Source: Lamprocystis purpurea DSM 4197
GTDB lineage: Bacteria > Pseudomonadota > Gammaproteobacteria > Chromatiales > Chromatiaceae
DNA length: 64,000 nucleotides
Reading direction: 5' to 3'
NCBI RefSeq assembly: GCF_000379525.1
Contig: NZ_KB902520.1
Coordinates: forward strand, 76,419-140,418
Numbering within the stretch: the first letter of the stretch is position 1; each line of letters opens with the position of its first letter. Below, piece by piece: positions 8,048 through 52,783 of this stretch. The notes beneath the pieces are model-generated. The model saw only the letters and a program-made list of their open reading frames with translations. It made no database searches and was not told the DNA's origin. A program made the translations under genes and the position numbers.

Positions 8048-8141
8048 AGGGAAACGCGGGATGATTATCCTCTGTTGCAGTGCACCATCGCAACCGTGCG
8101 CCGGCTTGCCCTGACCGCGAAGCGACCCCAGCGAGGAATCC

Positions 8142-9572: not shown

Positions 9573-9582
9573 GGAAGCTGTC

Positions 9583-10334: not shown

Positions 10335-10343
10335 GAGTTACTG

Positions 10344-11123: not shown

Positions 11124-11198
11124 GCGTCTCTGCCCTGGGTCGTGTGGAGCGCCCTGTGGTCGTTCCGTAAGCACCACCTCGACTGACCGGAGTCCCCC

Positions 11199-12549: not shown

Positions 12550-12690
12550 GGCACGGCGAACCCGCGGCTGTTGCGGAGTGGTGAAACCTCGCGGTCGCGC
12601 GGTGGACGCGGAAAAAGCGCTTCGCCCACCGTTCGACTTTGGATTATCCTTCGCGACACCGGTCGGTTCGCCCTAGCTGGAGGTTCTGTG

Positions 12691-18254: not shown

Positions 18255-18443
18255 GATCTCGTGGCCGGAGCGATCATCAACGCCGGGTCACGCATCGGGC
18301 AGGGGCGGAGCGCTGCGAGCGCTGCCGGCTCGAAAATTGACTAAGGCCTGCAGGTTTGTCGCTGCGGTTGGACTTGTTCTTCTCTCGCTGCCGCAGTTGC
18401 GTCACCCAGTGCCGGCCGAGTACGCCGTTGACCGTTCGTCGGA

Positions 18444-18472
18444 TGTCATAAAACGGTCATATAAATGTCACA
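18444..18472 (+). promoter_or_regulatory. Pho box (three half-sites) of the pst operon
   Basis: GTCATAAAACG, GTCATATAAAT and GTCACA start at 18445, 18456 and 18467, three half-sites in exact 11-bp register and with the A/T-rich spacers of the PhoB consensus. It lies about 100 bp before the pstS start, which fits an activated promoter. Confidence 0.85.
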
Positions 18473-18573
18473 GCAATATGAGGTCTCTGCTGCGACACTT
18501 AGGGCGCTTAAGATCGATTGCGGCCGGCTCGATGCGTGCCGCCTTCCCCATCAACCCTATCAGGAATCATGAC

Positions 18574-19632
18574 ATGCAGAAAGCATCGATCATCAAAGCG
18601 GTGTTGACCGCCGGTTGCGTCGCGCTGTTCGCTCTGTCCGCGCCGGTGAGCGCCGACGTCAAGCTCAACGGCTCGGGGGCGAGTTTCCCCTTTCCGATCT
18701 ACTCGAAATGGTTCAAGGATTTCAGTAAAGAGCATAAGGATATCCGCGTCGACTATCAATCCAAGGGTAGCGGCGCCGGCATACAGGACCTGATCAACGG
18801 CACCGTGGACTTTGCCGCTTCGGATGCCGCCATGGAAGACGCCGAGATCGCCAAAGTCAAGCAGGGCGTGGTGCTGCTGCCGATGACCGCCGGTGAGATC
18901 GTGCTGATCTATAACCTGAAAGGCGTGAAGGATCTCAAGCTGTCGCGCGCCGCCTATGCCGGGATTTTCAGCGGCACCATCACCAAGTGGAACGATCCGG
19001 CCATCGCCGCCACCAATCCGGGTGTGGCGCTGCCGGATAAGGCGATCACGGTCGTGACCCGCTCCGACTCATCGGGCACCTCCTACGTCTTTTCGGGTCA
19101 CCTGGCCGCCATCAGCGAGGCGTTCGACAAGGCAGTCGGCAAGAGCAAGCAGCCCAACTGGCCGTCGTCCGGCAAGTTCGTCGCTGCCCCCAAGAACGAT
19201 GGTGTCACCGCCCAGGTGCAGCAGAACGAGGGCGCCATCGGCTATGTCGAGTATGGCTACGCCAAGCTGACCGGCTGGAAGCAGGTTGCCCAACTCGAGA
19301 ACAAGTCGGGTAATTTCGTCGCCGCGGGCCCGCAGACCGGCGCCGCCGCGTTGGCCGCCTCCGAGTTTCCCGGCACGACCCTGCCCAACAGCGACGTGCC
19401 CAACCTGATCGCCTGGAACTGGGATCCGGTGGGCGCCGAATCCTATCCCATCGTGTCCTACACGTGGATGCTTTTCTATAAGGATCAGGACGATGCCAAG
19501 GCCGCGGCGCTGCGCAAGATGGTGAAATACGGCATCGAGGAAGGTCAAAAGATTGCCGATTCCATGGGCTATATCCCGCTGCCTGAGAACGTGCAGCAGA
19601 AGGTCCTGGAGGCTGCCGAGTTCATTCAATAG
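18574..19632 (+). CDS. pstS: Phosphate-binding protein PstS (first)
   Basis: The periplasmic phosphate receptor of the Pst ABC transporter. The 352-residue precursor has a signal peptide ending near VSAD. Phosphate-contact regions are clear: GSGASFPFP, SKGSGAGIQD, DFAASDAAMED and TRSDSSGTSYVF. The ATG at 18574 is chosen because the signal peptide starts there; the upstream open frame overlaps the Pho box. It is the first gene of a pstS-C-A-B-S2-SIR2 unit. A half copy of a GTAGGGTGCGG repeat lies between it and pstC, which could lower expression of the downstream genes relative to pstS. Confidence 0.97.
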   Translation: MQKASIIKAVLTAGCVALFALSAPVSADVKLNGSGASFPFPIYSKWFKDFSKEHKDIRVDYQSKGSGAGIQDLINGTVDFAASDAAMEDAEIAKVKQGVVLLPMTAGEIVLIYNLKGVKDLKLSRAAYAGIFSGTITKWNDPAIAATNPGVALPDKAITVVTRSDSSGTSYVFSGHLAAISEAFDKAVGKSKQPNWPSSGKFVAAPKNDGVTAQVQQNEGAIGYVEYGYAKLTGWKQVAQLENKSGNFVAAGPQTGAAALAASEFPGTTLPNSDVPNLIAWNWDPVGAESYPIVSYTWMLFYKDQDDAKAAALRKMVKYGIEEGQKIADSMGYIPLPENVQQKVLEAAEFIQ

Positions 19633-19656
19633 CTGGTGCGGGGCGCTCTTTTAGCC

Positions 19657-19685
19657 GTAGGGTGCGGTGAGGAACGAACCGCACC
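19657..19685. repeat. GTAGGGTGCGGTG repeat between pstS and pstC
   Basis: Matches the first arm of 18183-18254 (GTAGGGTGCGGTGAGGAACG, then AACCGCACC). It is a short imperfect palindrome in the 157-bp pstS-pstC gap and may stabilise the pstS 3' end, as REP elements do. Confidence 0.55.
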
Positions 19686-19789
19686 GCGGTCGATTGGTGC
19701 TCTTTCATTTCCGGCAGGGCTGCCGAAGCGAGGCGGGCGGATGCCGCCCTCCTCCATCCTTTCCATTTTGTCAACCTGACAGGGTGACC

Positions 19790-20764
19790 ATGGCTAACTT
19801 ATTTGCATCAGCAGGCTCGGCGAGCAGTGTCTCAGGGCCGCCATCCGGCGGCGATTACGCGGCCGACAGCATCTTTCGCGGTCTGGCCTGGCTCAGTGCC
19901 TTCCTCATCATTGCCCTCACCGGCTACATCCTGTGGGAGATACTGCGCGAGGCGTTCCCCGCGATGCAGGCTTATGGACTGGGCTTCATCACCGGGACCA
20001 CCTGGAATGTCAATGCGCAGCAGTTCGGCGTGCTGCCCGAAATTTGGGGCACGCTCTACAGTTCGCTGCTCGCGCTGTTCCTGGGGGGGAGTTTCGGGAT
20101 CGCGATCGCCATCTTCCTGACCCAGGACTTTCTCGATCATCGGGTGGCCACGGTCTTCCGCACCATCATCGAAATGCTGGCCGCCATTCCCTCGGTGGTG
20201 TTCGGGCTCTGGGGCATTTTCGTGCTGATCCCGCTGCTCAAGCCCGGCGCGGAGTGGCTGCACAGTCAGTTCGGCTGGTTCCCGCTGTTCAGTACCGATC
20301 TGGCCGGGCCTGGTATGGCCCCGGCCGCCTTGGTATTGGCGATCATGATCCTGCCGACCGTGGCGGCGATCTCGGTCGATGCCTTCCGGCGCATTCCCTA
20401 TAAGGTCAAAGAAGCCGCCTACGGGATGGGCACCACCCGCTGGGAGGCCATCCTCAAGGTCATGGTGCCGACCGCCTCATCCGGCCTGCTGGCCGCACTG
20501 GTGCTCGGCTTCGGCCGCGCGCTCGGCGAGACCATGGCGCTCGCCATGTTGATCGGTAACGCCAACCAGATCAGCCTGTCGCTGTTCTCCCCTGCCAACA
20601 CCCTGGCCTCGCTGCTGGCCTCCACCTTCCCCGAAGCCGGCCAGCTCGAGGTCCAGGCCCTGATGTACGCCGCGCTGGTGCTGCTGGTGATCACCTTCAT
20701 CGTGAATGTGCTCGGTCTGGCGGTGCAGCAATATACGATTCGGAAGTTCGAGGGTAAGAAATGA
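19790..20764 (+). CDS. pstC: Phosphate ABC transporter permease PstC
   Basis: Inner-membrane permease of 324 residues with six hydrophobic segments and the EAA-type loop EAAYGMGTTRWEAILKVMVP that contacts PstB. The charged residues in AFRRIPYKVKEAAYG are in the usual place. The ATG at 19790 follows GGGTGACC and gives the normal N-terminal length; the upstream open frame is derived from the repeat at 19657. The stop overlaps the pstA start by 4 bases (ATGA). Confidence 0.96.
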   Translation: MANLFASAGSASSVSGPPSGGDYAADSIFRGLAWLSAFLIIALTGYILWEILREAFPAMQAYGLGFITGTTWNVNAQQFGVLPEIWGTLYSSLLALFLGGSFGIAIAIFLTQDFLDHRVATVFRTIIEMLAAIPSVVFGLWGIFVLIPLLKPGAEWLHSQFGWFPLFSTDLAGPGMAPAALVLAIMILPTVAAISVDAFRRIPYKVKEAAYGMGTTRWEAILKVMVPTASSGLLAALVLGFGRALGETMALAMLIGNANQISLSLFSPANTLASLLASTFPEAGQLEVQALMYAALVLLVITFIVNVLGLAVQQYTIRKFEGKK

Positions 20765-21666
20765 GCGACTTCGATCTCACGAAAGCGGGCGAGGCCGCGC
20801 GCCCCATGCCGCAACTGGCCCGTCAGGGCTTCGAGGTGCGGGCGCTGAAAAGCGGTCTGCTCACCGGGCTGACCTGGCTCGCCGCGTTGATTGCCGCGGT
20901 GCCGCTTATTTCAGTGATGTACCTGCTGCTGGTCAAGGGCGGCAGCCGCCTGTTTGGGGCCGATTTCGCGGAGGTTCTGACCGGGCTGCCGCCCGCCGGA
21001 TTCGAACTGGGCGGCGGCATCGGCCCGGCGATCGTCGGCACCCTGGTGATGGTCGGCATCGCTTCGGTCATCAGCATCCCCATCGGCATCCTGGCGGCGA
21101 TCTATCTCGGCGTGCTGGAGCCGCGCAGCCGGCTGGCCAATACCTCCCGCTTCCTCGCTAAGGTGTTGACCGGATTCCCTTCCATCATGGCGGGCGTGTT
21201 CGTCTATGCGGTCCTGGTCATCCACTGGGGCTATTCGGCCTGGGCCGGCGGTATCGCATTAGCGGTGCTGATGTTGCGCACCGTGGTCCTGGCCGCCGAG
21301 GAGGCGATCGCCCAGGTTCCCCAGCGGATGAAGGACGCCGCCTACGGCATGGGCTGCACCCGCACCCAGGTGATCTGGAAGGTGGTCTTGCCCACCGGTT
21401 TGCCGGGCATTCTGACCGGGGTCCTGCTGGCGGTTGCCGGTGCGGCCGGGGAGTCCGCGCCCTTGCTGTTCACGGCGTTGTTCAGCAACTACTTCATCTC
21501 CGAGTTGTCCGAGCCGACTGCCTCGCTCTCGATCCTCATTTACAACTTCTCCGGCATGCCCTTCCCGAACCAGATCGAGCTGGCCTGGACGGCGTCGCTG
21601 GTGCTGGTGCTGATCGTGCTGATGTTCAACATCCTGGCACGCCTGATCGGTCAGCCCAAGGTCTGA
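20761..21666 (+). CDS. pstA: Phosphate ABC transporter permease PstA
   Basis: Second channel subunit, 301 residues. It has six hydrophobic segments and the EAA-type loop DAAYGMGCTRTQVIWKVVLP, followed by PGILTGVLLAVAGAAGESAPL, which is typical of PstA. The 4-base overlap with pstC indicates translational coupling. It forms the pore with PstC and is energised by PstB. Confidence 0.96.
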   Translation: MSDFDLTKAGEAARPMPQLARQGFEVRALKSGLLTGLTWLAALIAAVPLISVMYLLLVKGGSRLFGADFAEVLTGLPPAGFELGGGIGPAIVGTLVMVGIASVISIPIGILAAIYLGVLEPRSRLANTSRFLAKVLTGFPSIMAGVFVYAVLVIHWGYSAWAGGIALAVLMLRTVVLAAEEAIAQVPQRMKDAAYGMGCTRTQVIWKVVLPTGLPGILTGVLLAVAGAAGESAPLLFTALFSNYFISELSEPTASLSILIYNFSGMPFPNQIELAWTASLVLVLIVLMFNILARLIGQPKV

Positions 21667-21693
21667 TTTCACAGTTTCCAAGGTATCACAACC

Positions 21694-22518
21694 ATGAACG
21701 CAGCAGCAGAATCGACGTTTGTCGCTGACCCCTACGCCGCCGTCGGTGAGGTCGTCATCGATTGCCAGGTCAATAAGATTTTCTACGGGGACTTTCTCGC
21801 CGTGCGGGACAGTCTGGTGCCCATCGAGCAGCATAAGATTACCGGTTTCATTGGGCCCTCGGGCTGCGGTAAATCCACGGTGCTGCGCAGCCTGAACCGC
21901 ATGAACGATCTGATTCAGGTGTTCCGCTTCGAGGGCAGCGTGATGTACCACGGACAGGATGTCTATGGGCCCAAGGTGGACCCGGTGCTGGTGCGCCGCT
22001 ATATCGGCATGGTGTTCCAGCAGCCCAATCCCTTCTCCATGAGCATCTATGACAACGTCGCCTTCGGGCTGCGGCTCAACCGCTTCAAGGGCGATATGGA
22101 CGAGCGCGTACAGAAGGCCCTGGAACGCGCCGCGCTGTGGAACGAGGTCAAGGACAAGCTCAAGAACAGCGGTCTGTCGCTCTCCGGCGGCCAGCAGCAG
22201 CGCCTGTGCATCGCCCGCGCCATCGCCACCGAACCCGATGTGCTCCTGATGGACGAGCCCTGCTCCGCGCTCGACCCGATCGCTACCCGCCAGGTGGAAG
22301 AACTGATGCTGGATCTGAAAAAGAACTACACCCTGGCCCTGGTGACGCACAACATGCAGCAGGCCACGCGCGTGGCGGACACCACCGCCTTCTTCTCGGT
22401 GGACATCTCCCATGGCGGACGCACCGGCTATCTGGTCGAAATGGGTCCCACCGCGCAAATCTTCGAAGCCCCCAGGGAACAACTCACCAAGGACTACATC
22501 TCCGGTCAGTTCAGTTGA
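21694..22518 (+). CDS. pstB: Phosphate ABC transporter ATPase PstB
   Basis: Cytoplasmic ATPase of 274 residues. Walker A is GPSGCGKST at 54-62, the signature is LSGGQQQR, Walker B is [13 protein letters not shown] and the switch histidine is in VTHNMQQ. No phoU gene follows, unlike the usual pst order; instead a second pstS and a SIR2-type gene follow. PhoU may be elsewhere in the genome. Confidence 0.97.
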
Positions 22519-31663: not shown

Positions 31664-32958
31664 TTATTCGATCTCGACCCCCTTCTCCTCGATTTCCTTC
31701 ATGACCGCCTGGTAGACGGCCTCCTTGTGCTCCGCCTCCAGAACCTCGGGGCTCTTATTGCCGAAGAAGGACTGCGCGGCAAACACCAGGCCCGGCAAGA
31801 CGAAGAACACCCCCAGGATGTAGCCGAAGACGACCAGGCGAGAGCGCTCGGCCCCGTTGGCCAGCGCCTGGGCGGCCTGCATGGGCAGCCTCCACAGCGG
31901 CGGGATGGCGGCGAAGAGCGCCACGCCGAATCCGTTGTAGAGCAGGTGCACGAGGGCGACCTGCAACGCGAAGAGTTCATACTCGCCAGTGACCGCTGTT
32001 GCCGCGAGCAAGGCCGTGATCGGGGTTCCGAGGTTTGCCCCCAGGGTGAAGGGGTAGACCTGGGCCAAGGTGAACACCCCGGCACCCGCCATCGGCACGA
32101 TGAGCACGGTGGTCAGGGTCGACGACTGGACGATGAGGGTCACGACCAGGCCGGAGAGGACCGCCAGCGCCGCGCTCTTGCCGACGGCGGCGTTGAAGAC
32201 GCGCTGGGCCTTGCCCGTCATCACCGCCTTGAGGCTCTTGTTCAGGGCATATACCACACCCAGAACCGCCGCGATACCGACCACGATCATGACGAAGCCG
32301 CTGATCTGGTCCGGAAGCAGCCCGATCAGATCCCGCAGCGCATTGATGACCGGCCGCGTGATGGTCCGAATGAAATCGAAGTCCCGCATCGAGGCGTCGC
32401 CGCTCCCCTCGAAGAGCTTCGCCAGGTATCCCGCCAGCCGCTCCAGCGGGTGGAACAGCATCTCGATCGGCAGGAAGATCAGGATGGTGAACAGGTTGAA
32501 GAAATCGTGGACGGTCGCGGCACTGAACGAGCGGTTGAACGCCTTATCCTCCCGCAGGTTGCCCAGGGCGGCAAGGGTGTTGGTGACCGTCGTCCCCATG
32601 TTGGAGCCCATGATCATCGGAATCGCCATGGCCACCGGGAGACCGCCACCGACCAGACCCACGATCACCGAGGTCACCGCGCTGGAGGACTGCACCAATG
32701 AGGTCGCCAATACGCCGAGCAGGACACCCACGATCGGGTTCGTGGCAAACTCGAAGATCGCTGTAGCCCCAGCCGCGCCCCCGGAGACCGACCGGAAGCC
32801 CTGGCTGAGGAGCCCGACGGCAATCATCAGCGCATAGACAAGTGCAAGAACGATGAGCCACTGCACGACTCGCTGGATGTCGCTCGCCCCTTCCTCGGCG
32901 TCTCCCGCAACGCCTTGCGACACTCCAGCGCCACTCCCAACTGTGTCTTCGCCGCTCA
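31664..32958 (-). CDS. Na+/phosphate symporter, NptA/SLC34-like
   Basis: A 431-residue inner-membrane transporter of the Na/Pi-cotransporter family. The two inverted repeats carry the hallmark motifs QSSSAVTSVIVGLVGGG and QSSTLTTVLIVP, and GSNMGTTVTNTLAALG and GANLGTPITALLAATA. About eight membrane segments are visible, with a large soluble loop between the halves. The ATG at 32958 is chosen because GGAGG lies 7 bases upstream; the longer open frame starts near the divergent promoter. It is divergent from the DUF1576 gene, with a Pho box in the shared 360-bp region, giving the cell a second, sodium-driven phosphate uptake route besides Pst. Confidence 0.93.
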
Positions 32959-33265
32959 TAAAGCACCTCCAGAGGTTCAATTGCTCGGTCAATACGTTGA
33001 AAATGGCGGAACGTCCCGGGTCGCGTGGGCACCCCGACTTTCTCGCCTTGCCAAGTTTAGATGTGAAGTGTGACAATTCGCCGGGACCCTATGAAGCAAG
33101 GGTTATCGGCGCACTCAGGGGCGTGCTCGCCGATGCGTGTCGGCGCTGCAGCGTCCAGCAGGACTCGCGTGTGCGGGGTCGCCTGGGAAACGCTGATCAG
33201 ATCAACGTTGTTCGAGGTATCATCGATACGCCGAGCGCGCTCGCCATGAGTTGAATCCTCATCCC

Positions 33266-33287
33266 GCGGTCACCCCACGGTCATCCT
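33266..33287 (+). promoter_or_regulatory. Putative Pho box between symporter and DUF1576 genes
   Basis: GCGGTCACCCC then ACGGTCATCC give GGTCA half-sites at 33268 and 33279, 11 bp apart. TAATGTTAT a few bases on could be the -10 region, which places the transcript start near 33298 and favours translation from 33319 and not from the ATG at 33289. The rest of 32959-33318 shows no gene. Confidence 0.6.
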
Positions 33288-33318
33288 AATGTTATCGACA
33301 GAGACGCCCGACGACGCG

Positions 33319-34650
33319 ATGAATGAGCCGATCCGACCGGCACCAGAAACGGCGGACCGGCTGATCCTACGCGTGATCAGCGGCTATGCGGCCCTGTTCG
33401 TCGTCTTCGGTTTTCTGGTCTCCAGTCCCACCGAAATCGGCGAGGGGTTGGTCGCGATAATGACGTCGCGCGACACCCTATTGACCGATTATTTCGGCGT
33501 CGGCGGGGTAGGCGCCGGATTCGTCAATGCGGGCCTGCTGACCCTGAGTGCGTGCCTGGTCTACTTCCTCGTGGGGGCGAGGCTCAATGGTGCGGCGGTG
33601 GCCGCACTCTTTCTCCTGTTAGGGTTCGGCCTGTTCGGCAAGAATCTGCTCAATATCTGGTTCATCGTCTTCGGCGTGGCGTTGTACGCGCGTTTCAAGG
33701 GACAGCCATTCGCGACCCACATCAATGCCGCGTTCTTCGCAGTGGCGCTGTCGCCGGTTACCTCGGAGATCCTCTTCAGCTCCCTCTTGCCGGTTGAAGT
33801 CGCAGTGCCCCTTGGCATCGGTACCGGAGTCCTGATCGGATTCATCCTGCCGCCGGTGGCGGCCCAGGTGTTCAAGGCCCAGATGGGCTTCGCGCTCTAT
33901 AACATGGGATTTGCCGCGGGCCTGGTCGGGATCTTGATCGTTGCCTTATACAAATCCTACGGGTTCGTACCGGACCCCGTGCTCATCTGGACCACCGGGA
34001 ACAATCTTCTGCTGGGAAGTTTCGTCGGGTTTGTGTTGGCGACCATGCTGGCGATCGGACTCCTGCTGGATCGACACGCGCCCTGCGGCTTTGCGCGGAT
34101 CCTGCGCGAATCCGGCCAGGCGCCAACCGACTTCATCGCCATCGGCGGGTTCGGCGCGACCTTGATCAATATGGCGCTGAGCGGGGCGATCGGGCTGGCC
34201 TACGTCCTGGCCGTGGGCGGTGACCTGAACGGCCCGGTGATCGGGGCGCTGTTGTCGATCATGGGGTTCGCAGCGTTCGGCAAGCACCCGAAGAACCTCG
34301 TGCCGATCATCATCGGTGTCGTCCTGGGCTCGCTGGCAAAGCCGTGGCACTTGGCTGACCCCTCCATCCTGCTCGCCGCGCTCTTCGGCACCAACCTGGC
34401 GCCGATCGCCGGACGCTTCGGTTGGGGCTGGGGCATCGCCGCGGGCTTTTTGCACTCGTCAGCGGTGCTCAGCGTGGGTGTGATGCACGGCGGACTGAAT
34501 CTATACAACAACGGCTTCGCAGCCGGGATCGTCGCCACCGTTCTGGTTCCCATCATCATCGCGGTGCAATCCGGCAGGGCGCCGGTCGAACCGCCGCTTT
34601 GCCAGCCATCCGGCGCCTCGGGACGGCGCGTCGATGACGGTGATGCATGA
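33319..34650 (+). CDS. DUF1576 family polytopic membrane protein
   Basis: About 443 residues with ten or more hydrophobic segments and two similar halves: GVGGVGAGFVNAGLLTLSA and IGGFGATLINMALSGAIG, each followed by GFGLFGKNLLNIW or GFAAFGKHPKNLVP. This internal repeat and GFAAG motifs match the DUF1576 family, which has no assigned function and looks like a transporter. Starts at 33289 and 33319 are both possible; 33319 fits the promoter elements better. Divergence from a Na/Pi symporter behind a Pho-box-like site suggests a role under phosphate limitation, but substrate is unknown. Confidence 0.82.
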   Translation: MNEPIRPAPETADRLILRVISGYAALFVVFGFLVSSPTEIGEGLVAIMTSRDTLLTDYFGVGGVGAGFVNAGLLTLSACLVYFLVGARLNGAAVAALFLLLGFGLFGKNLLNIWFIVFGVALYARFKGQPFATHINAAFFAVALSPVTSEILFSSLLPVEVAVPLGIGTGVLIGFILPPVAAQVFKAQMGFALYNMGFAAGLVGILIVALYKSYGFVPDPVLIWTTGNNLLLGSFVGFVLATMLAIGLLLDRHAPCGFARILRESGQAPTDFIAIGGFGATLINMALSGAIGLAYVLAVGGDLNGPVIGALLSIMGFAAFGKHPKNLVPIIIGVVLGSLAKPWHLADPSILLAALFGTNLAPIAGRFGWGWGIAAGFLHSSAVLSVGVMHGGLNLYNNGFAAGIVATVLVPIIIAVQSGRAPVEPPLCQPSGASGRRVDDGDA

Positions 34651-34769
34651 CCGGGACCGCCTGCCGCGGCCCGCCTGGCGACGGCGGCGCGGTGAGGCTC
34701 GCCCGATGCTCAAGCGACCCCCGCTGTCGCCCGATGATGGGAACGGGCTCAGGAACTGACCACGCGCTC

Positions 34770-34790
34770 GGTTCACGACTCCGTAACACC
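34770..34790 (+). promoter_or_regulatory. Weak Pho-box-like repeat before third pstS
   Basis: GGTTCACGACT then CCGTAACACC give TTCA and GTAA cores 11 bp apart, about 80 bp before the start at 34870. The match to the half-site consensus is poor; it is listed because of the spacing and the gene that follows. Confidence 0.3.
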
Positions 34791-34869
34791 GCGGTGGGAT
34801 GATCCACACGCGGCGTCTCGGACGCCGCGTGAGACCCCGTCGCAACCCCTCTAGTCAGGAGCACTCAGC

Positions 34870-35901
34870 ATGCATCTGCATCGTATCGGCGCGGCCGCGC
34901 TCGCCTTGGCCCTCAGCTTACTGCTCAGCCTGCCGGCGCAGGCGCAGCAGGTCCGGATCAACGGCGGCGGGGCGAGCTTCCCGTTCCCGCTCTACTCGGC
35001 GTGGTTTCGTCACTTCAATCGGGAGAATCGGGGGATACGGATCAACTACCAGTCGGTCGGCAGCGGCACCGGCGTGCGCAACGTCATCAACCGCACCTTC
35101 GATTTTGGCGCCAGCGACGCGGCCATGACCGACGAGGAGATGGCCCAAGTGCGCGGCGGGGTGCTGGTGCTGCCCATGACGGCCGGTGAGATCGTGCTCG
35201 CCTACAACCTGCCGGGGATCGACAATGTGCGGCTGCCGCGCGCCGTCTACCCGCTGATCTTCTCCGGTGAGATCACCAACTGGAGCGATCCGCGGATCGC
35301 CGCGGCCAATCCTGGCGTGACCCTCCCCGACCGGACGATCCGGGTCGTGCGGCGGTCCGATTCCTCGGGCACCACCTTCGTCTTCACCCAACACCTGAGC
35401 GCCATCAATGAGTCCTTCCGCACGCGGGTGGGGACCGGCACCTCGGTGTCCTGGCCGAACCAGCCGAATATCATCGGCGCACCGCGCAACGATGGCGTCA
35501 CCGCCACCGTCAACCAGACGGTGGGTTCGATCGGTTATATCGAGTATTTCTTCGCCACCTCGACCAACGCTCAGGTGGCAATGTTGGAGAATGCCGCCGG
35601 TCAGTTCGTCGCGCCCAGCGACGAGTCCGGCCAGGCGGCCCTGGCCGGCGCGGACCTCACGGGCAAGGACCTGCGCATCTGGGTGACGGACCCCGCTGAC
35701 CCGGCGGCCTACCCGATCGTCACCTTTACCTGGATGCTGTTCTTCCGCGAGCACGGCAACGAACGGATCAGTGCGGCCCTGCGCGACTTCGTCACCTGGG
35801 CGCTGGCGGATGGTCAGGGAATGGCGGCCGACCTCGGCTACATCCCGATGCCGAAGGCCGTCGTGGAGCGCGTTCAGGCGGAGATCCCCAACATCCGCTA
35901 G
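34870..35901 (+). CDS. pstS: Phosphate-binding protein PstS (third, stand-alone)
   Basis: A 343-residue secreted PstS paralogue with a signal peptide ending at AQAQQ. Contact motifs are GGGASFPFP, VGSGTGVRN, DFGASDAAMTD and RRSDSSGTTFVF. No permease or ATPase gene is adjacent, so it must deliver phosphate to the PstCAB at 19.8-22.5 kb or act as a sensor or scavenger. SD-like CAGGAG is 8 bases upstream of the ATG. Confidence 0.95.
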   Translation: MHLHRIGAAALALALSLLLSLPAQAQQVRINGGGASFPFPLYSAWFRHFNRENRGIRINYQSVGSGTGVRNVINRTFDFGASDAAMTDEEMAQVRGGVLVLPMTAGEIVLAYNLPGIDNVRLPRAVYPLIFSGEITNWSDPRIAAANPGVTLPDRTIRVVRRSDSSGTTFVFTQHLSAINESFRTRVGTGTSVSWPNQPNIIGAPRNDGVTATVNQTVGSIGYIEYFFATSTNAQVAMLENAAGQFVAPSDESGQAALAGADLTGKDLRIWVTDPADPAAYPIVTFTWMLFFREHGNERISAALRDFVTWALADGQGMAADLGYIPMPKAVVERVQAEIPNIR

Positions 35902-38991: not shown

Positions 38992-39270
38992 CACGGGTTT
39001 CCTTTAAGCAATGTGTTGGTGTGGGTATCGGTTGGCCGGACTGCTGCCGGCAAGAGGGGATCAAGTTCCGGCGGGACTCTTGCGCGACAGGCGAAACGCG
39101 CCGGCAACTCCGGGGTTTCCCGAGGACAGCCAATGCGTATCCTGGCGGAGTCTAGTCTAACCGCGATTGGTTGCGCCTTTGATACCGGGACTGGGCGGGT
39201 CCGCCGTTAGGTCAAGACGCAAGACTGCGCCAACGCGGGCGACAGAGCCGCCAAGACGGCCTGCCGGACC

Positions 39271-39299
39271 GTTACAACGCTGTCACATCTTCCTGTCAC
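39271..39299 (+). promoter_or_regulatory. Putative Pho box before the vWA/binding-protein operon
   Basis: Half-sites GTTACA (39271), TGTCACA (from 39281) and TGTCACA (from 39294) are present; the first pair is 11 bp apart and the second 13 bp. It lies about 75 bp before the start at 39371. The irregular spacing lowers confidence. Nothing else was seen in 38992-39370. Confidence 0.5.
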
Positions 39300-39370: not shown

Positions 39371-41155
39371 ATGTTCACGGACCTGTCGCGAACCCCGTTC
39401 GCCGCCGCCCTGGCGGTCTCGCTCCTTGGTCTTGCTCCCGGTGCCGCCTCCGCGGCGGAGGTGGAGAACCGCTGTACTCCGACGCCGAACCAGGTCGTGG
39501 TGCGCTTCACCTACGGCTCCGAGAAAGCACCCTGGATCCACGAGGTCACCGACGCCTTCAACCGGCAGGGCGAGCAGACCGCCTCCGGCAAGACCATCTG
39601 CGTCCATGCCATCCCCAAGGGGTCCGGCGATGCGGTCAACGAGATCAAGAACGGTCAGGCCGGCCCCGACGAGGTCCACGCCACCAGTCCGGCCTCGGAC
39701 CTCTATGTGAACCTGATCAATTTCGAGTCGACCGAAACGCAGGGCCAGGACCTGCTGAAGGTCGAGGGCTTTCTGGTCTCATCCCCGGTGGTGATCGCCG
39801 TATGGGAGCCGGTGCTCGCCAAGCTGGGCCCGGCCGATCAGGTGGGTTGGGCCGAGGTCTTCAAGCGCTCGGCCGCGGGCGGCTTCCGCTATGGTCAGAC
39901 CAGCCCGGAGAGTTCCAACAGCGGGCTGTCGGCCCTGGTTGCCCAGTTCTATGCGGGGGCCGAAGCGGAGGCCGGACGGTCGGTGCCGCGCCTGTCGCTC
40001 GCCAAGGTCGAGGATCCCAAGGTCCGCGCATTCGTCGCCAAGGTCCACGAGAGCGTCATCCATTACGGCCGCTCCACCGGCTTCTATGCCGAGAAGATGC
40101 GGGCCGGCGGCCCCCAGTACGCGGATGCGGTGGTGCTCTATGAGAGCGACGTGATCCAGGCCAACCAGTACATCCGTGACCAGGGACTCAAGTTCCCCAA
40201 GCTGCTGGCGGTCTACCCCAAGGAGGGTACCTTCGCCACCAATCACCCCTTCGCCATCGTCAAGCGCGATTGGGTGGACGCGGATGAGGAGGATGGCGCC
40301 AAGCGCTACTTCGCCTTCCTGATGTCCCCCCAGACTCAGGCCAAGGCGCTGCAATACGGGTTCCGTCCGAGCGTTGCCCTCGATATGGACCCGAAGATCT
40401 ATGCCATGGTGTGGAGCCCGGACCATGGGGTGCAGCCATTCGAGACGGTGCACAATTTCCTCGCCACACCCGGCGGCAACGTGGTCAAGGCCGCCCGCGA
40501 TGCCTTCCGCGCGATCAAGAACAAGTCCCAGGTCGTGCTGGTGATCGACCGCTCCGGCAGCATGGACACCAAGTTGCGCGACAACGAGCGCGGGGTGGAG
40601 CGCTCGCGGATGGAGATGGCGGTGGAGAGTGCGAACCTGCTCGCCGGAACCCTCCAGGACAAGGACCGCCTCTCCCTGCTGCTCTATGACTATCAGGTCC
40701 AGTATTCCGATTTGACGCCCAAGGGCCAGCCGATCGCCATGGATGCGGCCGGCAAGGCGCGCCTGACGGAGGCGCTCGCCAAGATTCGCCCGGCGGGCGG
40801 CACCGCCATGCGCTCGGCCATCGCCACCGCCTGGACCGACCTCTGTCAGGCGATCAAGGCCGACCCGTCGGACCGGTCGATCCGCGTCCTGGTGGTCCTG
40901 ACCGATGGGGTCGACAATGCCTCGAAGGTCTCGGATGCCGACCTGATCCGGCAGATCGGCTTCGCCCAGGGTGACGGCCGCGGTGGTTATCTGGGCGATC
41001 CGGCCTGCAAGATCCCGGTCTTCGGCGTCGCCTTCGGCGGCCAGGCGGACGACGCGCCGCTCAAGGCCGTCAGTGCCGCCGCCGGCGGCGAGACGCGCCG
41101 CGGGGACTCCGCGGAGATCCGCGAGATCTTCAAGCGCTTCAGCGAACTCCTGTGA
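39371..41155 (+). CDS. Exported substrate-binding protein fused to a vWA domain
   Basis: A 594-residue exported protein (signal peptide ending near AASAAE). Residues about 30-370 form a type II periplasmic binding domain: FTYGSEKAPWIHEVTDAFN, IPKGSGDAVNEIKNG, PDEVHATSPASDLYVN and SPESSNSGLSALVAQFYA, resembling phosphate/molybdate-type and SBP_bac_11 proteins. Residues about 385-594 form a von Willebrand A domain with a complete MIDAS: DRSGSMD near 393, GGTAMRS and LTDGVDNASK. The ATG has CGGAGG 5 bases upstream. The next gene starts within 30 bp, giving an operon of two binding proteins and a small exported protein with no permease or ATPase. The ligand is unknown. Confidence 0.88.
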   Translation: MFTDLSRTPFAAALAVSLLGLAPGAASAAEVENRCTPTPNQVVVRFTYGSEKAPWIHEVTDAFNRQGEQTASGKTICVHAIPKGSGDAVNEIKNGQAGPDEVHATSPASDLYVNLINFESTETQGQDLLKVEGFLVSSPVVIAVWEPVLAKLGPADQVGWAEVFKRSAAGGFRYGQTSPESSNSGLSALVAQFYAGAEAEAGRSVPRLSLAKVEDPKVRAFVAKVHESVIHYGRSTGFYAEKMRAGGPQYADAVVLYESDVIQANQYIRDQGLKFPKLLAVYPKEGTFATNHPFAIVKRDWVDADEEDGAKRYFAFLMSPQTQAKALQYGFRPSVALDMDPKIYAMVWSPDHGVQPFETVHNFLATPGGNVVKAARDAFRAIKNKSQVVLVIDRSGSMDTKLRDNERGVERSRMEMAVESANLLAGTLQDKDRLSLLLYDYQVQYSDLTPKGQPIAMDAAGKARLTEALAKIRPAGGTAMRSAIATAWTDLCQAIKADPSDRSIRVLVVLTDGVDNASKVSDADLIRQIGFAQGDGRGGYLGDPACKIPVFGVAFGGQADDAPLKAVSAAAGGETRRGDSAEIREIFKRFSELL

Positions 41156-41181
41156 TCACTGCCAAGTCGAGGACGATCCCG

Positions 41182-42714
41182 ATGTCACCATCCGCGAATC
41201 CCGCGCCGACCACAGGCCGCACCAACACCGCATTCGACAGACTCGGCCGCATGGCAGCCTGCACGTTGCTGGCGTTCGCCGTCGCACTCGCCGCGCCCAC
41301 GCTACCGGCGGCCGAGAAGCTGTTCGACTTCGGCAGCCTCAACGTCGACCTGTCCAAAGTCCAGGCGAAACCCGGCGCGACCCCCGATCAAGCCGGGACC
41401 CCATCGGGCACGGCGGTGAAGGAGGCGCCCGCCCAGCAATTGCCGAGCACCCCGGAGAGTCCGGCCCCGGCCGTCTTGCCGCGCGACGGTCAGGAGTCGA
41501 TCGGCGCCACGGTCAAGACGCAGGCGATCACGGTCAAGCCGGTGGAGGTGAGCGCGGCCAAAGCCGGGCAGCAGCAGGTGAACTATCCGGTGCCGGAAGA
41601 CCGGCAGGTGATCGAGGTCAAGATCGCCGCCGGCTCCGAGAAGAAGGACTGGTTCGAGGAGGCCGCCCGGCGCTTCATGGCCGACCCCAGCCTCAACAGC
41701 ATCGACGGCAAGCCCATCCGGCTCACCATCGACAAGATCGGCTCGACCGAGTCCGCGACCCTGCTGGCCGGCGGCAAGACCATGCACGGCGGGCGCAATG
41801 AGTATCAGGTGTGGGCCCCCGCCTCCAGCATCTTCCGCGGTGTGGTGGAGGACGCCTTCACCGGCGGCAAGCTGTTCGAGACCGATGACTCGGTGGCGCG
41901 CAGCCCGATGGTCTTCGTCACCTGGGAGCCGGTGCAGCAGGCGATCGATCAGAAGCTCCAGAAGTCGATGAGCTTCGATACGCTTACCGAGATTTTCTCC
42001 CGCGAGTTGGGCGGCGACAAGATCGACCCGAATGGGCGCAACTTCCAATTCGGCTTCACCCGCCCGCAGGACTCCAACAGCGGCGCGGTCGCCCTGATCA
42101 CGATGGCCTACGAGTTCTTCGCCAAGGACCGGGCGTACTACAAGATCCGGCTGGATGACTTGAAGAACCCCGACTTCCAAGCCTATCTGGCCTTCATGAA
42201 ATATCTGTCGGACCAGACCAAGGACAGCACCGGCAAGCTCGCCGAGCCGCTGATGCAGGCCGGTTACGGGGGCCAGCCGTTGTCCAGCGTCTATGTGTAC
42301 GAGAACCTGGGTGTGAAGCTCGCTTTCATCCGCAAGGCCAATGACCCGGCCGGGGCCAAGCCGGTGATCCGTTATCCCAAGTACAATCTCATCTCGGATC
42401 ATCCCTATTACACTCTGCGTCACGGCAATTCCCAGGCCCAGGTCGAGGCCGCGCGGCGCTTCAAGGACTTCCTGCTGACCCGCGACATCCAACTCCTGGC
42501 CCTGCAAAAGGAGGGCTTCCGCCCGGTCAGTACCCAAATCTCCAACCAGGAGATGAACGACGTGCTGGGCGGCGATTTCGTGACCGAGAACGGACTGGTG
42601 CCGGACCTGATCAAGGCCTCCCAGATCCTCATCCCGGCCCAGAGCGGCGAGGTCATCATGGCCCTGATCCGCACCTACCAGGGGCTTGGGGACCCGGTCG
42701 GACCCAACTTCTGA
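41182..42714 (+). CDS. Exported binding protein with Pro-rich linker
   Basis: 510 residues from the ATG at 41182, which has GAGGA upstream; a GTG overlapping the previous stop at 41152 is the alternative. The N terminus is a signal peptide preceded by a long basic region (ending TLPAAEKLFDF). A low-complexity, Pro/Ala-rich stretch (about 60-130) links to a type II binding domain: EVKIAAGSEKKDWFEEAARRF, WAPASSIFRGVVEDAF, RPQDSNSGAVALITMAYEFF and a late ADKYP-like region. It is clearly related to the binding domain of the preceding vWA protein (compare the SNSG motif) but has no vWA domain. Probably tethered or soluble in the periplasm. Confidence 0.82.
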   Translation: MSPSANPAPTTGRTNTAFDRLGRMAACTLLAFAVALAAPTLPAAEKLFDFGSLNVDLSKVQAKPGATPDQAGTPSGTAVKEAPAQQLPSTPESPAPAVLPRDGQESIGATVKTQAITVKPVEVSAAKAGQQQVNYPVPEDRQVIEVKIAAGSEKKDWFEEAARRFMADPSLNSIDGKPIRLTIDKIGSTESATLLAGGKTMHGGRNEYQVWAPASSIFRGVVEDAFTGGKLFETDDSVARSPMVFVTWEPVQQAIDQKLQKSMSFDTLTEIFSRELGGDKIDPNGRNFQFGFTRPQDSNSGAVALITMAYEFFAKDRAYYKIRLDDLKNPDFQAYLAFMKYLSDQTKDSTGKLAEPLMQAGYGGQPLSSVYVYENLGVKLAFIRKANDPAGAKPVIRYPKYNLISDHPYYTLRHGNSQAQVEAARRFKDFLLTRDIQLLALQKEGFRPVSTQISNQEMNDVLGGDFVTENGLVPDLIKASQILIPAQSGEVIMALIRTYQGLGDPVGPNF

Positions 42715-42733
42715 ATCATCGAGGAACCACGAC

Positions 42734-43420
42734 ATGAGGACCCAAGGGCCGACGCCGAGCGCTCGATGCGCGTACCTGCCCCTGCTTGCTCTGGCCGCCC
42801 TGATGGCGGCCACGGCTGCTGCCCAGGCGGCCAGCTTCGGTGATTACCTGAAGCAGTTGGGCGGCTTCTCATTCGGCGGAAGCGAGTTCAGCCCCGCCGA
42901 TATGGCCGGCAACCAGAAGCAATGGGAAGACCGCGAGCGCTGGGTCAAGGAGGCCCTGGACCAGGCCTATCTGGCCCTGGCACGCTCGGACAAAGAGGTG
43001 AATCTGTTCGATTTCCAGAACTATTACAATGTCCTGTCCATCCAGTGGACCCCCGAGTACCTGACCGACCCGGCCCATATCGGCAATCTCAACGCCTACG
43101 CGACCTTCACCGAGTACCTCTCACGGTATCTCAAGGTCAAGCAGGAACTCATCACGAAGATCGCTGAACTCAACCGTCACTATGCAGTACTGAAGCAGAT
43201 CGATCCGCGCCGCCTCACCGGTCCCTTCCAACTGGACACCGGCGGCCAGGCGCAGTCCTACACCCAGCAGGCCGCCGGCTCGGTGGACGCGACCGCCCAC
43301 CAGGCGGCCCTGGCCACTTCCGCCGGGGCGGTGGAGAAATACACCGCGGAACTGAATCGCGCCATCGACTATGGGCTCGATCTGGAAGGCCACTTCAAGC
43401 AGGCGACGGGGATTCAGTGA
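42734..43420 (+). CDS. Exported helical protein of the vWA operon, 228 aa
   Basis: The ATG at 42734 has GAGGAAC upstream and begins a signal peptide (ending near AAAQAASFG). The mature part is helical: a WVKEALDQAYLALARSDKEV segment, an aromatic-rich centre (NYYNVLSIQWTPEYL) and C-terminal coiled-coil-like sequence. No family is recognised. It follows the binding protein by 19 bp, so it is very likely part of the same periplasmic system. Confidence 0.75.
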   Translation: MRTQGPTPSARCAYLPLLALAALMAATAAAQAASFGDYLKQLGGFSFGGSEFSPADMAGNQKQWEDRERWVKEALDQAYLALARSDKEVNLFDFQNYYNVLSIQWTPEYLTDPAHIGNLNAYATFTEYLSRYLKVKQELITKIAELNRHYAVLKQIDPRRLTGPFQLDTGGQAQSYTQQAAGSVDATAHQAALATSAGAVEKYTAELNRAIDYGLDLEGHFKQATGIQ

Positions 43421-43596
43421 CGGTTTCTAAATTAAACAAGTCTTTTTGTTGTTGACGAGGTCAGCGGTCGTCGCGGCGCGGTACGTCCAGTCAGGGTTCA
43501 TCCAGGCGACACATTCGGTTGCTACCTTATTGCAATGCAATATCGCAGCCCACCGTCGGCCCGATCCCAGGGCCTGCCGCCAGCGAGGACCCCAGC

Positions 43597-45036
43597 GTGG
43601 AATCCACAACCGCCGACTTCATCGAGAACCGGACCTTCGACGAGATCCAGATCGGACAGACCGCGGAACTGGAGCGCACCCTGACCCGCGACGACGTGGC
43701 CCTGTTCGGCAAGGTGTCCGGAGACCTCAACCCGATCCACACCGACGCGGCCTATGCCGTGGAGAGCGGGGCCCGGGGGGTGGTCGGCCACAGCCTCTGG
43801 GCCACCAGCCTGATCTCCAGCTTGTTGGGCAACGTGCTGCCCGGTCCAGGTACGGTGTATGTCAGCCAGGACTCCAACTTCCACCGGGCGGTGGACTTGG
43901 GCGACACCCTGACCGCCCGCATCCGGGTCCGCGAGCGCCGCGAGGGGCGCGTCGTCCTGTTCGACTGCGAGGTCCGCAACCAGCGCCATGAGCCGGTGAT
44001 GGACGGCGTGGCGCAGGTCGTGGCGCCGGCGGAACGCATCCGCTTCCGCCGCGTGGAGGCCCCCGAGGTTTCGGTTCGGCACCACGACAGCTTCGGCGTC
44101 CTGTTGGAGGCGGTCCAGGCACTGGAGCCGGTGCCGACGGCCGTGGTTCACCCGGTCGACCAGGTCTCGCTGCAAGGCGCCATCGAGGCCTTCCAGGACG
44201 GCTTCATCCAGCCCATCCTGATCGGGCCCTTGGGCCGCATCCGCAGCGTTGCGGATGAACTCGGGCTCGACCTCGGCAGCATTGAGATCATCGACGTCGC
44301 GCACAGCCATGCCGCCGCCGCGCGCGCCGTGGCCCTGATCCGCGAGGGCCGTGCCGAGATCCTGATGAAGGGCAGCCTGCACACCGACGAGGTGCTCGCC
44401 GCCGTGCTGGACAAGGTCAACGGCATCCGTACCGCCCGGCGTATCAGCCACGTCTTCGTGATGGACGTGCCCACCTACCCCAAGCTGCTGCTGGTCTCCG
44501 ACGCGGCCGTCAACATCGCCCCGGACCTGGAGGCCAAGGCCGACATCTGCCAGAACGCGATCGACCTGGCCCACACCCTGGGAGTCGCGCGACCCAAGGT
44601 TGCGATCCTGTCCGCGGTGGAAACGATCCGGCCCAAGATCCAGTCCACCTTGGACGCCGCCGCACTCTGCAAGATGGCCGAGCGCGGCCAGATTCAGGGC
44701 GGCGTCTTGGACGGCCCGCTCGCCATGGACAACGCGATCAACCCGGAGGCGGCGCGGATCAAGAAGATCGCCTCGGAGGTCGCCGGGGTCGCCGACGTGC
44801 TCATCGTCCCGGATCTGGAGTCCGGCAACATCCTCGCCAAGCAACTCATCTTCCTCGCCAACGCGGAAGCGGCCGGGGTGGTCCTGGGCGCGCGGGTGCC
44901 GATCGTGCTGACCTCGCGCGCCGACAGCGTGCGCACGCGCCGCGCCAGCGCCGCCGTCGCCGTGCTCCATGCCCATGCGGTGCGTCAGGGGCTGATCCTG
45001 AAAGACCTGCCCAAGGACCTGGTCAAGGGTGCTTGA
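43597..45036 (+). CDS. MaoC hydratase / phosphate acyltransferase fusion, copy 2
   Basis: 479 residues, same architecture as 8142-9572: a MaoC domain with SGDLNPIHTD (D-x-N-P-x-H) and a phosphate acyltransferase domain with the conserved AEILMKGSLHTDEVL and DVPTYPKLLLVSDAAVN. The start is a GTG at 43597 preceded by GCGAGGA; at the position of the copy-1 ATG this copy has ACA. The gene begins an intact cassette (kinase 10 bp later, FabI overlapping the kinase end, then DUF3141). No Pho box was found in the 176 bp upstream, which suggests read-through from the vWA operon or another promoter. Confidence 0.92.
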   Translation: MESTTADFIENRTFDEIQIGQTAELERTLTRDDVALFGKVSGDLNPIHTDAAYAVESGARGVVGHSLWATSLISSLLGNVLPGPGTVYVSQDSNFHRAVDLGDTLTARIRVRERREGRVVLFDCEVRNQRHEPVMDGVAQVVAPAERIRFRRVEAPEVSVRHHDSFGVLLEAVQALEPVPTAVVHPVDQVSLQGAIEAFQDGFIQPILIGPLGRIRSVADELGLDLGSIEIIDVAHSHAAAARAVALIREGRAEILMKGSLHTDEVLAAVLDKVNGIRTARRISHVFVMDVPTYPKLLLVSDAAVNIAPDLEAKADICQNAIDLAHTLGVARPKVAILSAVETIRPKIQSTLDAAALCKMAERGQIQGGVLDGPLAMDNAINPEAARIKKIASEVAGVADVLIVPDLESGNILAKQLIFLANAEAAGVVLGARVPIVLTSRADSVRTRRASAAVAVLHAHAVRQGLILKDLPKDLVKGA

Positions 45037-45046
45037 GGAGGCCGCC

Positions 45047-46264
45047 ATGAACGACCTGATCCTCACCCTGAATGCCGGGTCTTCCAGCGTCAAGTTTGCC
45101 CTCTACGAGATTGTCGATGACGCACCGGCGGTGCGCGTGAAGGGCCAGGTGGAGGGCATCGGCACGGCCCCGCATTTCGTCGCCAAGGACCCCTCGGGCA
45201 AGCTGCTGGCCGAGAGCTACTGGGAAGCCGTGCCCGCCGGCCAAGGCCACGCCCGCGCCTTCAAGCAGATCTGGAACTGGCTGGCGGACGCGGCCCAGGG
45301 CCAAGCCATCCTCGCCGTGGGTCATCGGGTCGGCCACGGCGGCGAGACCTATGCCGAGCCGGTGCTGGTGGACGCGCAGGTTCTGCACGTCCTGACCGGC
45401 CTGATCCCACTGGTGCCGCTGCACCAGCCGAACAATCTGGCCGCGATCCGGGCGGTGGCGATGGACCATCCCGAGCTGCCGCAGGTGGCTTGCTTCGACA
45501 CCGGTTTTCATCGCGGGCGCGCTCGCGTGACCGAACAGCTCGGCCTGCCGCGGGCGCTCCTGGACCGTGGGGTCAAGCGCTACGGTTTCCACGGACTTTC
45601 CTATGAGTACATCGCCGGGCGCCTGCGCGAGCTGGCCCCGGAGGTCGCCGACGGCCGGGTGGTGGTGGCCCACCTGGGCAGCGGGGCGAGCATGACCGCC
45701 TTGATCGGCGGACGCAGCGTCGATACCACCATGAGCTTCTCGGCCCTGGACGGGCTGCCCATGGGCACCCGCTGCGGGGTGCTGGACGCGGGGGTGATCC
45801 TGTTCCTGATGCGTGAGGACGGGTTGGGGGTCACCGAGTTGGAGGACCTGCTGTACAAGCGGTCCGGGCTGCTGGGTCTCTCCGGGGTCAGCAACGACCT
45901 GCGCGACCTGCACGCGAGCGACGACCCGCGCGCCGCGGAGGCGATCGACTATTTCTGCTATCGCATCGGCCAGACCCTGGGGGCACTGTGCGCCTCCATC
46001 GGCGGTCTCGATGCCCTGGTATTCACCGCCGGAGTCGGCGAAAACGACGCGGTGGTCCGCGCCAGGGTCTGCCGCGACGCCGCCTGGCTCGGCATCAGGC
46101 TCGACGAGGCGGCCAATGGGACCCAAGGCCCGCGGATCAGCCCGCCGGGTGCGATCCCGTCAGTGTGGGTCATCCCCACCGACGAAGAGGCCATGATCGC
46201 CCGCCACACCTTGCGCGTCGTACGTGAACTTTCGTCGCCAACATTGGGATCAGATCATGCTTGA
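45047..46264 (+). CDS. ackA: Acetate/propionate family kinase
   Basis: 405 residues with the whole ASKHA-kinase motif set: LNAGSSSVKFAL, ACFDTGFHR, YGFHGLSYEYIA, HLGSGASM, GLPMGTRCGVLDAG and FTAGVGENDAV. It makes ATP and a short-chain acid from acyl phosphate and ADP (or the reverse). The ATG at 45047 is 10 bp after the upstream stop with GAGGAGG overlapping. The end overlaps the fabI start by 8 bases, indicating coupling. It is the complete counterpart of the remnant at 9583-10334. Confidence 0.95.
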   Translation: MNDLILTLNAGSSSVKFALYEIVDDAPAVRVKGQVEGIGTAPHFVAKDPSGKLLAESYWEAVPAGQGHARAFKQIWNWLADAAQGQAILAVGHRVGHGGETYAEPVLVDAQVLHVLTGLIPLVPLHQPNNLAAIRAVAMDHPELPQVACFDTGFHRGRARVTEQLGLPRALLDRGVKRYGFHGLSYEYIAGRLRELAPEVADGRVVVAHLGSGASMTALIGGRSVDTTMSFSALDGLPMGTRCGVLDAGVILFLMREDGLGVTELEDLLYKRSGLLGLSGVSNDLRDLHASDDPRAAEAIDYFCYRIGQTLGALCASIGGLDALVFTAGVGENDAVVRARVCRDAAWLGIRLDEAANGTQGPRISPPGAIPSVWVIPTDEEAMIARHTLRVVRELSSPTLGSDHA

Positions 46265-47036
46265 TGACAGCTATTTCAGCCTTGACGGCAAGAAGGGCCT
46301 GGTGATCGGGATTGCCAACGAACACTCGATCGCCTACGGCTGCGCCAGGGCCTTCCGCACCTTGGGGGCAGACCTGGCAGTCACCTATCTCAACGACAAG
46401 GCCCGGCCCTACGTAGAACCGCTCGCCAAGACGGTCGACGCCGAGCTCTTTCTGCCCTGCGACGTGATGGTGGAAGGCGAACTGGAGTCGGTCTTCGCGG
46501 CCGTGCGTGAACGCTGGGGCCGACTCGACTTCGCGGTCCATTCCATCGCCTTCGCTCCGCGCGAGGACCTGCAGGGGCGGTTGGTGGACTCCTCCGCCGC
46601 GGGGTTCGGCCTGGCCGTCAACGTCTCCGCCCATTCCTTCCTGCGCATGGCGCGCTTGGCGGAGCCCCTGATGGCAGACGGCGGCTCGCTCTTCGCCATG
46701 ACCTTCTACGGTGCCGACAAGGTGTTGCCGACCTACAACCTGATGGGTCCGGTCAAGGCCGCACTGGAGGCGGCGGTGCGCTACGCCGCCGCTGAGCTCG
46801 GACCCAAGGGCATCCGCGCTTATGCCCTCTCCCCCGGTCCCCTGCACACGCGCGCCGCCTCCGGCCTCAAGGGCTTCGATGCCTTGGTGGACAGCGCCGA
46901 GCAGCGGGCCCCCCTGCGGCGGCTGGCGGAGATCGACGACGTGGGGGCAGTCGCGGCCATGCTCGCGACCCGCACCGGCGTCATGCTGACCGGGCAGACC
47001 ATCTACGTGGACGGCGGCTTCCACATCACCGGCTGA
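46257..47036 (+). CDS. fabI: FabI-like enoyl reductase, copy 2
   Basis: 259 residues, same length as copy 1. Cofactor loop GIANEHSIAYG, catalytic Tyr-x6-Lys in TYNLMGPVK, SPGPLHTRAASG and C-terminal YVDGGFH are present. The ATG at 46257 is chosen because it gives the copy-1 N terminus (MLDDSYFSLDGKKG); an upstream in-frame ATG lies inside ackA. Overlap with ackA supports one transcript. A role in reducing crotonyl-CoA-type substrates made by the MaoC domain is proposed, not shown. Confidence 0.9.
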   Translation: MLDDSYFSLDGKKGLVIGIANEHSIAYGCARAFRTLGADLAVTYLNDKARPYVEPLAKTVDAELFLPCDVMVEGELESVFAAVRERWGRLDFAVHSIAFAPREDLQGRLVDSSAAGFGLAVNVSAHSFLRMARLAEPLMADGGSLFAMTFYGADKVLPTYNLMGPVKAALEAAVRYAAAELGPKGIRAYALSPGPLHTRAASGLKGFDALVDSAEQRAPLRRLAEIDDVGAVAAMLATRTGVMLTGQTIYVDGGFHITG

Positions 47037-47070
47037 CCGCCGCCAACGTCTCGACTGACCGGAGTAGACT

Positions 47071-52120: not shown

Positions 52121-52783
52121 TTGGCGAAACCGCGGCTGAATCTTCCCGAGATCGAGTCATCCCTGCGCGCGGTGCAGCGGGACTTCGCGCAGATCAATGC
52201 CACCCTGGACAGTCCGCGCGACCCGCTGCGGGACGAGGTGCTGGAAAACCTGTTGGCGGGTTATGAGTATGTCGACTCGCTGCTCGCGGCGGATCTGGAC
52301 CCATTCGCGCTCGGCAACTCCAAACATCTTTTGCAGCTCAATTACCTGGTGCTTTGCGGAACCCGCGATCTGGCCTATGAGGAATGTGCCCGGCACGCGC
52401 GCGAAACCGAGCAGCGCTATTACGATGACACCAACACCGGCGGCGCGCGCGCCTTCATGAATGCCATGGCCGACCAGCGCGGCAAGAGCGTCTGGCGGCG
52501 CGCGGCCGGTGCCTATATTCAGATGCTTTCGGCGCCCCAACTCTTCATCGAGGGAAACCATCGTACCGGGGCCCTGGTGATGAGTTGCCTGCTGTGTCGG
52601 GAAGGTCACCCGCCATTCGTGCTCACGGTCGGCAACGCCAAGGCCTATTTCGACCCGTCCACGGTTGTCAAGGGCTGCCGCAAGCGCAGTCTTCATGCGC
52701 TCATGGCAATCCCGAAACTGCGCAAGTGTCTTGCCAAGCTCATCGAGAAAGAGGCGGATCGACGTTTCCTGGCTCGCTCCTAA
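52121..52783 (+). CDS. Fic/DOC-like protein lacking the catalytic histidine
   Basis: 220 residues from a TTG start that has AAGGAG 8 bases upstream. The only strong motif is QLFIEGNHRTGALVMSCLL at about residue 140, close to the Fic core HxFx(D/E)GN(G/K)R. The position of the catalytic His is Gln here, while the E-G-N and the Arg are kept. The fold around it (N-terminal helices, later NAKAYFDPSTVVKG) also suits a Fic domain. It may bind but not transfer AMP, or use another chemistry. It overlaps the convergent outer-membrane gene by 4 bases. Confidence 0.7.
   Translation: MAKPRLNLPEIESSLRAVQRDFAQINATLDSPRDPLRDEVLENLLAGYEYVDSLLAADLDPFALGNSKHLLQLNYLVLCGTRDLAYEECARHARETEQRYYDDTNTGGARAFMNAMADQRGKSVWRRAAGAYIQMLSAPQLFIEGNHRTGALVMSCLLCREGHPPFVLTVGNAKAYFDPSTVVKGCRKRSLHALMAIPKLRKCLAKLIEKEADRRFLARS

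Follow-up and report, generated by a model that had tools for sequence, protein, structure and literature searches.

A three-gene operon, whose genes are here called P1, P2 and P3, lies on the forward strand of a 64,000-nucleotide stretch of contig NZ_KB902520.1 of Lamprocystis purpurea DSM 4197, the whole of which is referred to as the window (Table 1). The genes are separated by gaps of just 26 bp (P1/P2) and 19 bp (P2/P3) and have good ribosome sites, and are thus regarded as one operon. The likely start of P2, judged from its ribosome-binding site and signal peptide, is the ATG at 41182 with its GAGGA site, the alternative being 41251. At 66-95% protein identity for P1, P2 and P3 the three reading frames and the gene order are kept across at least eight genera, which places the operon beyond chance, and the order P1-P2-P3 was invariant in every intact locus that could be checked. 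A preliminary description of this DNA had proposed a tight operon of three exported proteins with no channel or ATPase, distinct from a normal ABC transporter, and all of this has held up: the three proteins carry export signals and look like ordinary Sec-exported periplasmic proteins devoid of surface anchors, no permease or ATPase adjoins the genes in the window or forms part of the conserved three-gene unit, and no constant permease or ATPase partner was found in at least 16 genomes.

Table 1. Coordinates of the P1-P2-P3 operon and of phosphate-related features in the window.
Feature	Position	Strand	Remarks
P1-P2-P3 operon	39371-43420	+	Three genes
P1	39371..41155	+	594 aa; type II solute-binding domain (~41-385) followed by MIDAS vWA domain (~386-594); Sec-exported
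P2	41182..42714	+	Pro-rich N-terminal linker, then another solute-binding domain, related to the one in P1; exported
P3	42734..43420	+	Exported helical protein restricted to Chromatiaceae
Pho box CCGTTACAACGCTGTCAC	39269..39286	+	Precedes the -10-like region of the P1 promoter by about 10 bp; canonical 11-bp period
Triple Pho box ATGTCATAAAACGGTCATATAAATGTCAC	18443..18471	+	Pst operon of the window; perfect-looking; used as reference
pst operon (pstS, pstC, pstA, pstB)	18532..22518	+	Context in the window
Na/Pi cotransporter (-), DUF1576 protein (+), second pstS (+)	31664..35901		3.5-8 kb upstream of P1-P2-P3
Pho-box-like site at the DUF1576 gene	33267-33295	+	

The domain composition of P1 agrees with its earlier reading as a binding domain fused to a complete MIDAS-type vWA domain, since Pfam assigns residues 46-332 to SBP_bac_11 (6e-13) and residues 388-572 to VWA_2/VWA (4e-8), and the MIDAS (D393-x-S395-x-S397, T478, D512) is complete and invariant in 20 diverse homologues from several phyla. 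The binding domain has kept the loops of its pocket (G49-S50-E51, G86, S182-N183-S184-G185, Y257-E258 and R332-P333), which are among the residues invariant in 16 homologues. This concentration of conserved residues in the pocket loops of the solute-binding protein (SBP) domain and in the MIDAS suggests that P1 probably does bind a ligand and, in a metal-dependent manner, a partner. The AlphaFold2 model of P1 is good (pLDDT 82). The best fold matches of the first domain in this model are sulfate-binding proteins (5um2, Z 25.8; 1sbp, Z 25.6), and thiamin-, sugar-phosphate- and polyamine-binding proteins score nearly as high, so that the predicted fold leaves the choice of ligand wide, the phosphate or molybdate of the preliminary description being candidates among others; the second domain matches the vWA structure 4fx5 (Z 22.7). 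Neither P1 nor P2 matched PBP_like_2, the sequence family of PstS, at E values up to 1, both falling into SBP_bac_11 instead. Four cysteines of P1 (35, 77, 492 and 546) are invariant in Chromatiaceae and not conserved outside the family, which would fit disulfides in the oxidising periplasm.

P2 had been described as a related binding protein with a Pro-rich linker, and this is corroborated by an SBP_bac_11 match just over the cut-off (27.7 versus 25 bits) and by a profile comparison which ties its SBP domain to that of P1 at E 1e-29. In one of the other loci (L045, genome G089; 7723-9264) P2 is interrupted by a TGA stop while P1 and P3 are intact, and about 700 bp lie between P1 and P2 in this locus and in L047. 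P3, as had been anticipated, is a helical exported protein of no recognised family: its N-terminus is signal-peptide-like, the prediction is all-helical and no match was found in Pfam or NCBIfam. Neither P2 nor P3 showed a significant match to PDB sequences. The AlphaFold2 model of P3 is poor (pLDDT 56), and the fold search of the PDB with this model gave no significant match (best E 0.6), which makes any partner site on P3 a guess.

The distribution of the operon is narrow. A search for P3 that covered 210 genomes of the order found it in 25, Chromatiaceae only, a count that leaves out G585 with its two weak fragments. Scanning 84,980 species with two conserved P3 peptides, by which distant relatives could be missed, returned 17 loci, all of them in Chromatiaceae. 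In the sister species Candidatus Thiodictyon syntrophicum the same operon is carried on plasmid pTs417, where it adjoins pstSCAB-pstS. Another member of the Chromatiaceae (G033, locus L048) carries P1 and P2 as a pair but lacks P3, and the second SBP of this pair branches with P2 (support 99/96); the P1-P2 pair thus seems to be older than the trio.

Proteins in which an SBP domain is fused to a vWA domain are rare, being present in only 9 of 398 genomes of the phylum. Most of those examined lie within operons of the layout SBP-TelA-[SBP-vWA]-2TM helical protein (L052, L056, L063, L065 and L129), where TelA is PF05816; these operons of distant relatives occur in Variovorax, Sphaerotilus and some Chromatiaceae, and in Deinococcus without TelA. 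Like P1-P2-P3 they combine two SBPs, one of them fused to vWA, with a helical partner, but they include a cytoplasmic TelA and a transmembrane partner, and the SBP that stands alone in them does not correspond to P2. In the phylogenetic tree P1/P2 and the TelA-linked SBP-vWA proteins form separate branches (support 100/98 and 96/92), and P2 groups with P1, apart from the stand-alone SBP encoded in the TelA operons, which suggests that the two double-SBP layouts arose separately. Tree and operon content together rule out membership of P1-P2-P3 in the TelA/2TM system. P3 was also considered as a homologue of TelA or of the 2TM helical protein, and hhalign gave no match with a P3 profile that is shallow (Neff 1.6). 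On a plasmid of Sphaerotilus sulfidivorans (L065, 5257-11900) a PhoX gene is followed after 5 bp by an SBP-TelA-[SBP-vWA]-2TM operon, which is an independent phosphate link for the distant SBP-vWA relatives.

The branch of P1 and P2 also holds the G033 pair, SBP-vWA proteins of Actinomycetota and one PspA-linked protein, in whose locus (L130, 8058-8795; genome G467) a gene of the PspA/IM30 family lies directly upstream of the SBP-vWA gene. The actinomycetal proteins, annotated as "Substrate-binding and VWA domain-containing protein" (Streptomyces sp. NBC_00564, Miltoncostaea oceani), share with P1 the order of an SBP domain followed by a MIDAS vWA domain, and their genes are followed by one for a short, largely helical protein, as in the P1-P2-P3 layout. 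They differ in that there is no second SBP, in that the helical partner contains a TM hairpin and has no sequence relationship to P3, and in that no phosphate context was seen at the loci examined. No description of an SBP-vWA/TelA or SBP-vWA/Pho system was found in the open-access literature, while an earlier mention in subscription papers is possible.

Control by phosphate was addressed through the promoter of P1, for which the preliminary description had pointed to a Pho-box-like site. Such a site is indeed present, but it is not the more obvious CTGTCAC-N6-CTGTCAC pair, which has a period of 13 and was dropped in favour of the site one half-site upstream listed in Table 1. PhoB-activated promoters consist of an 18-bp box, about 10 bp and the -10 hexamer, and this is the geometry found at the P1 promoters. 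Using a weight matrix trained on pst promoters of the family Chromatiaceae only, the scores peaked at a single, constant offset from the -10 of the P1 promoters (mean 8.8, z = 7.0), and none of 2000 random anchor sets scored as high; nine out of ten diverged P1 promoters of the main branch were positive at this same offset, while no Pho box was detected in the P1 promoters of Halochromatium, Thiohalocapsa and g33. It should be said that the fixed spacing is only partly independent as evidence, because orthologous P1 promoters share ancestry, and that the site of the window is unexceptional on its own, 14 of 189 background regions scoring as high against a background drawn from the retrieved neighbourhoods, in which Pho genes are already abundant. 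Global alignment of the upstream regions became informative only once it had been anchored on the -10. A sigma-70 promoter scan found none, as is expected of Pho-type promoters, which lack a -35.

A second line of evidence comes from the neighbourhood of the operon. Of 15 genomes, 6 have a pstS gene no more than 10 kb from P1, where 0.13 would be expected (P = 1.7e-9), and when counted by genus in four out of seven (P = 3.5e-6), the linkage occurring in varying orientations and at varying distances. Other neighbours include PhoX (L042), the betaine-lipid enzymes BtaA/BtaB together with PPK2 (L045 and L047) and CHAD proteins; in about half of the carrier genomes the operon is distant from known Pho genes. 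In the window itself positions 2246-35901 make up a phosphate-starvation island with PPK2, the pst operon and a further pstS, the Na/Pi cotransporter, the DUF1576 gene and another pstS. Within this island there are also a phytase-like esterase with a Pho-box-like site upstream and a putative glycolipid glycosyltransferase with no Pfam match.

As P1-P2-P3 has no transporter of its own, is found among phosphate-starvation genes and stands behind the same control site, it is probably an accessory of phosphate limitation. We tentatively read it as a periplasmic Pho-regulon accessory module of purple sulfur bacteria which forms a ligand-regulated MIDAS complex, and give this reading a probability of about 0.45. 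The absence of a transporter from the unit makes a ligand-controlled periplasmic complex the simplest mechanism. Under phosphate limitation PhoB would activate the operon, as its Pho box and neighbours suggest, and P1, P2 and P3 would be exported to the periplasm, where the type II binding domains of P1 and P2, which are related to each other, may hold an oxyanion or an anionic phosphorus compound in their clefts. Closure of P1 on its ligand could then lead the Mg-dependent MIDAS vWA domain to engage an acidic site of another protein, with P3 or P2 as the likeliest partner, giving a ligand-regulated complex which might concentrate the ligand, hand it over to Pst or other Pho-induced systems, or report the phosphate status of the periplasm. 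Sensing is plausible, and the use of an SBP to sense phosphorylated compounds has a precedent in HptA, a binding protein whose signal passes through a two-component system and whose structure (6lkg) is a fold match to P1 (Z 24.0), although the conserved set of P1-P2-P3 includes no histidine kinase or response regulator. Whether the module goes further and is a Pho-controlled, transporter-free machine, in which the MIDAS vWA domain reads ligand closure and acts on a lineage-specific helical partner as an undescribed kind of extracytoplasmic phosphorus sensor or capture complex, is doubtful on present evidence.

The same genes might instead extend an ABC importer, with P1 and P2 as orphan binding proteins feeding Pst or another ABC permease and with the vWA domain and P3 as docking or storage accessories. 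Binding proteins of ABC importers of the PstS/Sbp/SubI type do share the type II SBP fold of P1, pst operons are often found 4-10 kb from P1-P2-P3, permease-less second pstS genes are common beside pst here, and PstC is present in every genome that carries the operon. This last co-occurrence is uninformative, however, because PstC is nearly universal, being matched in all 14 control genomes and over the cut-off in 12. P1-P2-P3 differs from such importers in lacking a permease and ATPase and in the vWA domain fused to P1, pst genes are nearby in some genomes only and in differing layouts, and P1 and P2 are nearer to SBP_bac_11 proteins than to PstS. In addition, the 3.0 Mb genome G057 (locus L041) keeps P1-P2-P3 and a PstC but has no pstS of the operon-linked type seen in other species, and the vWA domain and P3 would be superfluous for a plain delivery SBP; we consider this explanation unlikely.

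A function in envelope stress or toxic-oxyanion stress, by which P1-P2-P3 would resemble the TelA-linked SBP-vWA operons in function and have been adapted to an all-periplasmic form, draws on the TelA operons of the distant relatives, on the PspA gene adjoining a relative from P1's own branch, on the PhoX gene directly before the Sphaerotilus operon and on the presence of TelA in 13 of 17 operon-bearing genomes in a 147-genome sample of the order, a co-occurrence that is confounded by shared ancestry. It is set against the separate branching of P1/P2, the absence of TelA and 2TM partners from the operon, the TelA genes of these genomes lying elsewhere, the lack of detectable relatedness of P3 to either of these proteins, and the absence from P1 of the lipobox which some TelA-linked relatives carry, and we judge it to be improbable as well. 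The adhesion or surface-capture role that had been half suggested from the vWA domain fares worst: vWA MIDAS domains often mediate adhesion and many of the carrier species aggregate, yet these compact Sec-type proteins come with no surface anchor, sortase signal, autotransporter, repeats or export partner, and linkage to Pho gives no reason for adhesion, so that a cell-surface adhesion or matrix-capture system is very improbable.

The wider interest is that genome annotations of several phyla include SBP-vWA fusions, for which no function is known, and that a clean, strongly conserved trio with a Pho box and pst genes as a handle makes the function of the whole class testable. P1-P2-P3 also points to an undescribed part of the response to phosphate scarcity in bloom-forming purple sulfur bacteria.

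Two further observations concern the surroundings of the operon. A block composed of a MaoC-phosphotransacetylase fusion, acetate kinase, an enoyl-ACP reductase-like SDR and a DUF3141 hydrolase is duplicated in the window (8142-12673 and 43519-49485), and the copy at 8142-12673, with its shortened kinase and DUF3141 frames, resembles a decaying duplicate. Finally, a family of proteins of about 240-257 aa with no Pfam match adjoins the second pstS in several loci (window 52121-52783; L037 5719-6492) and is a possible new Pho-cluster protein.
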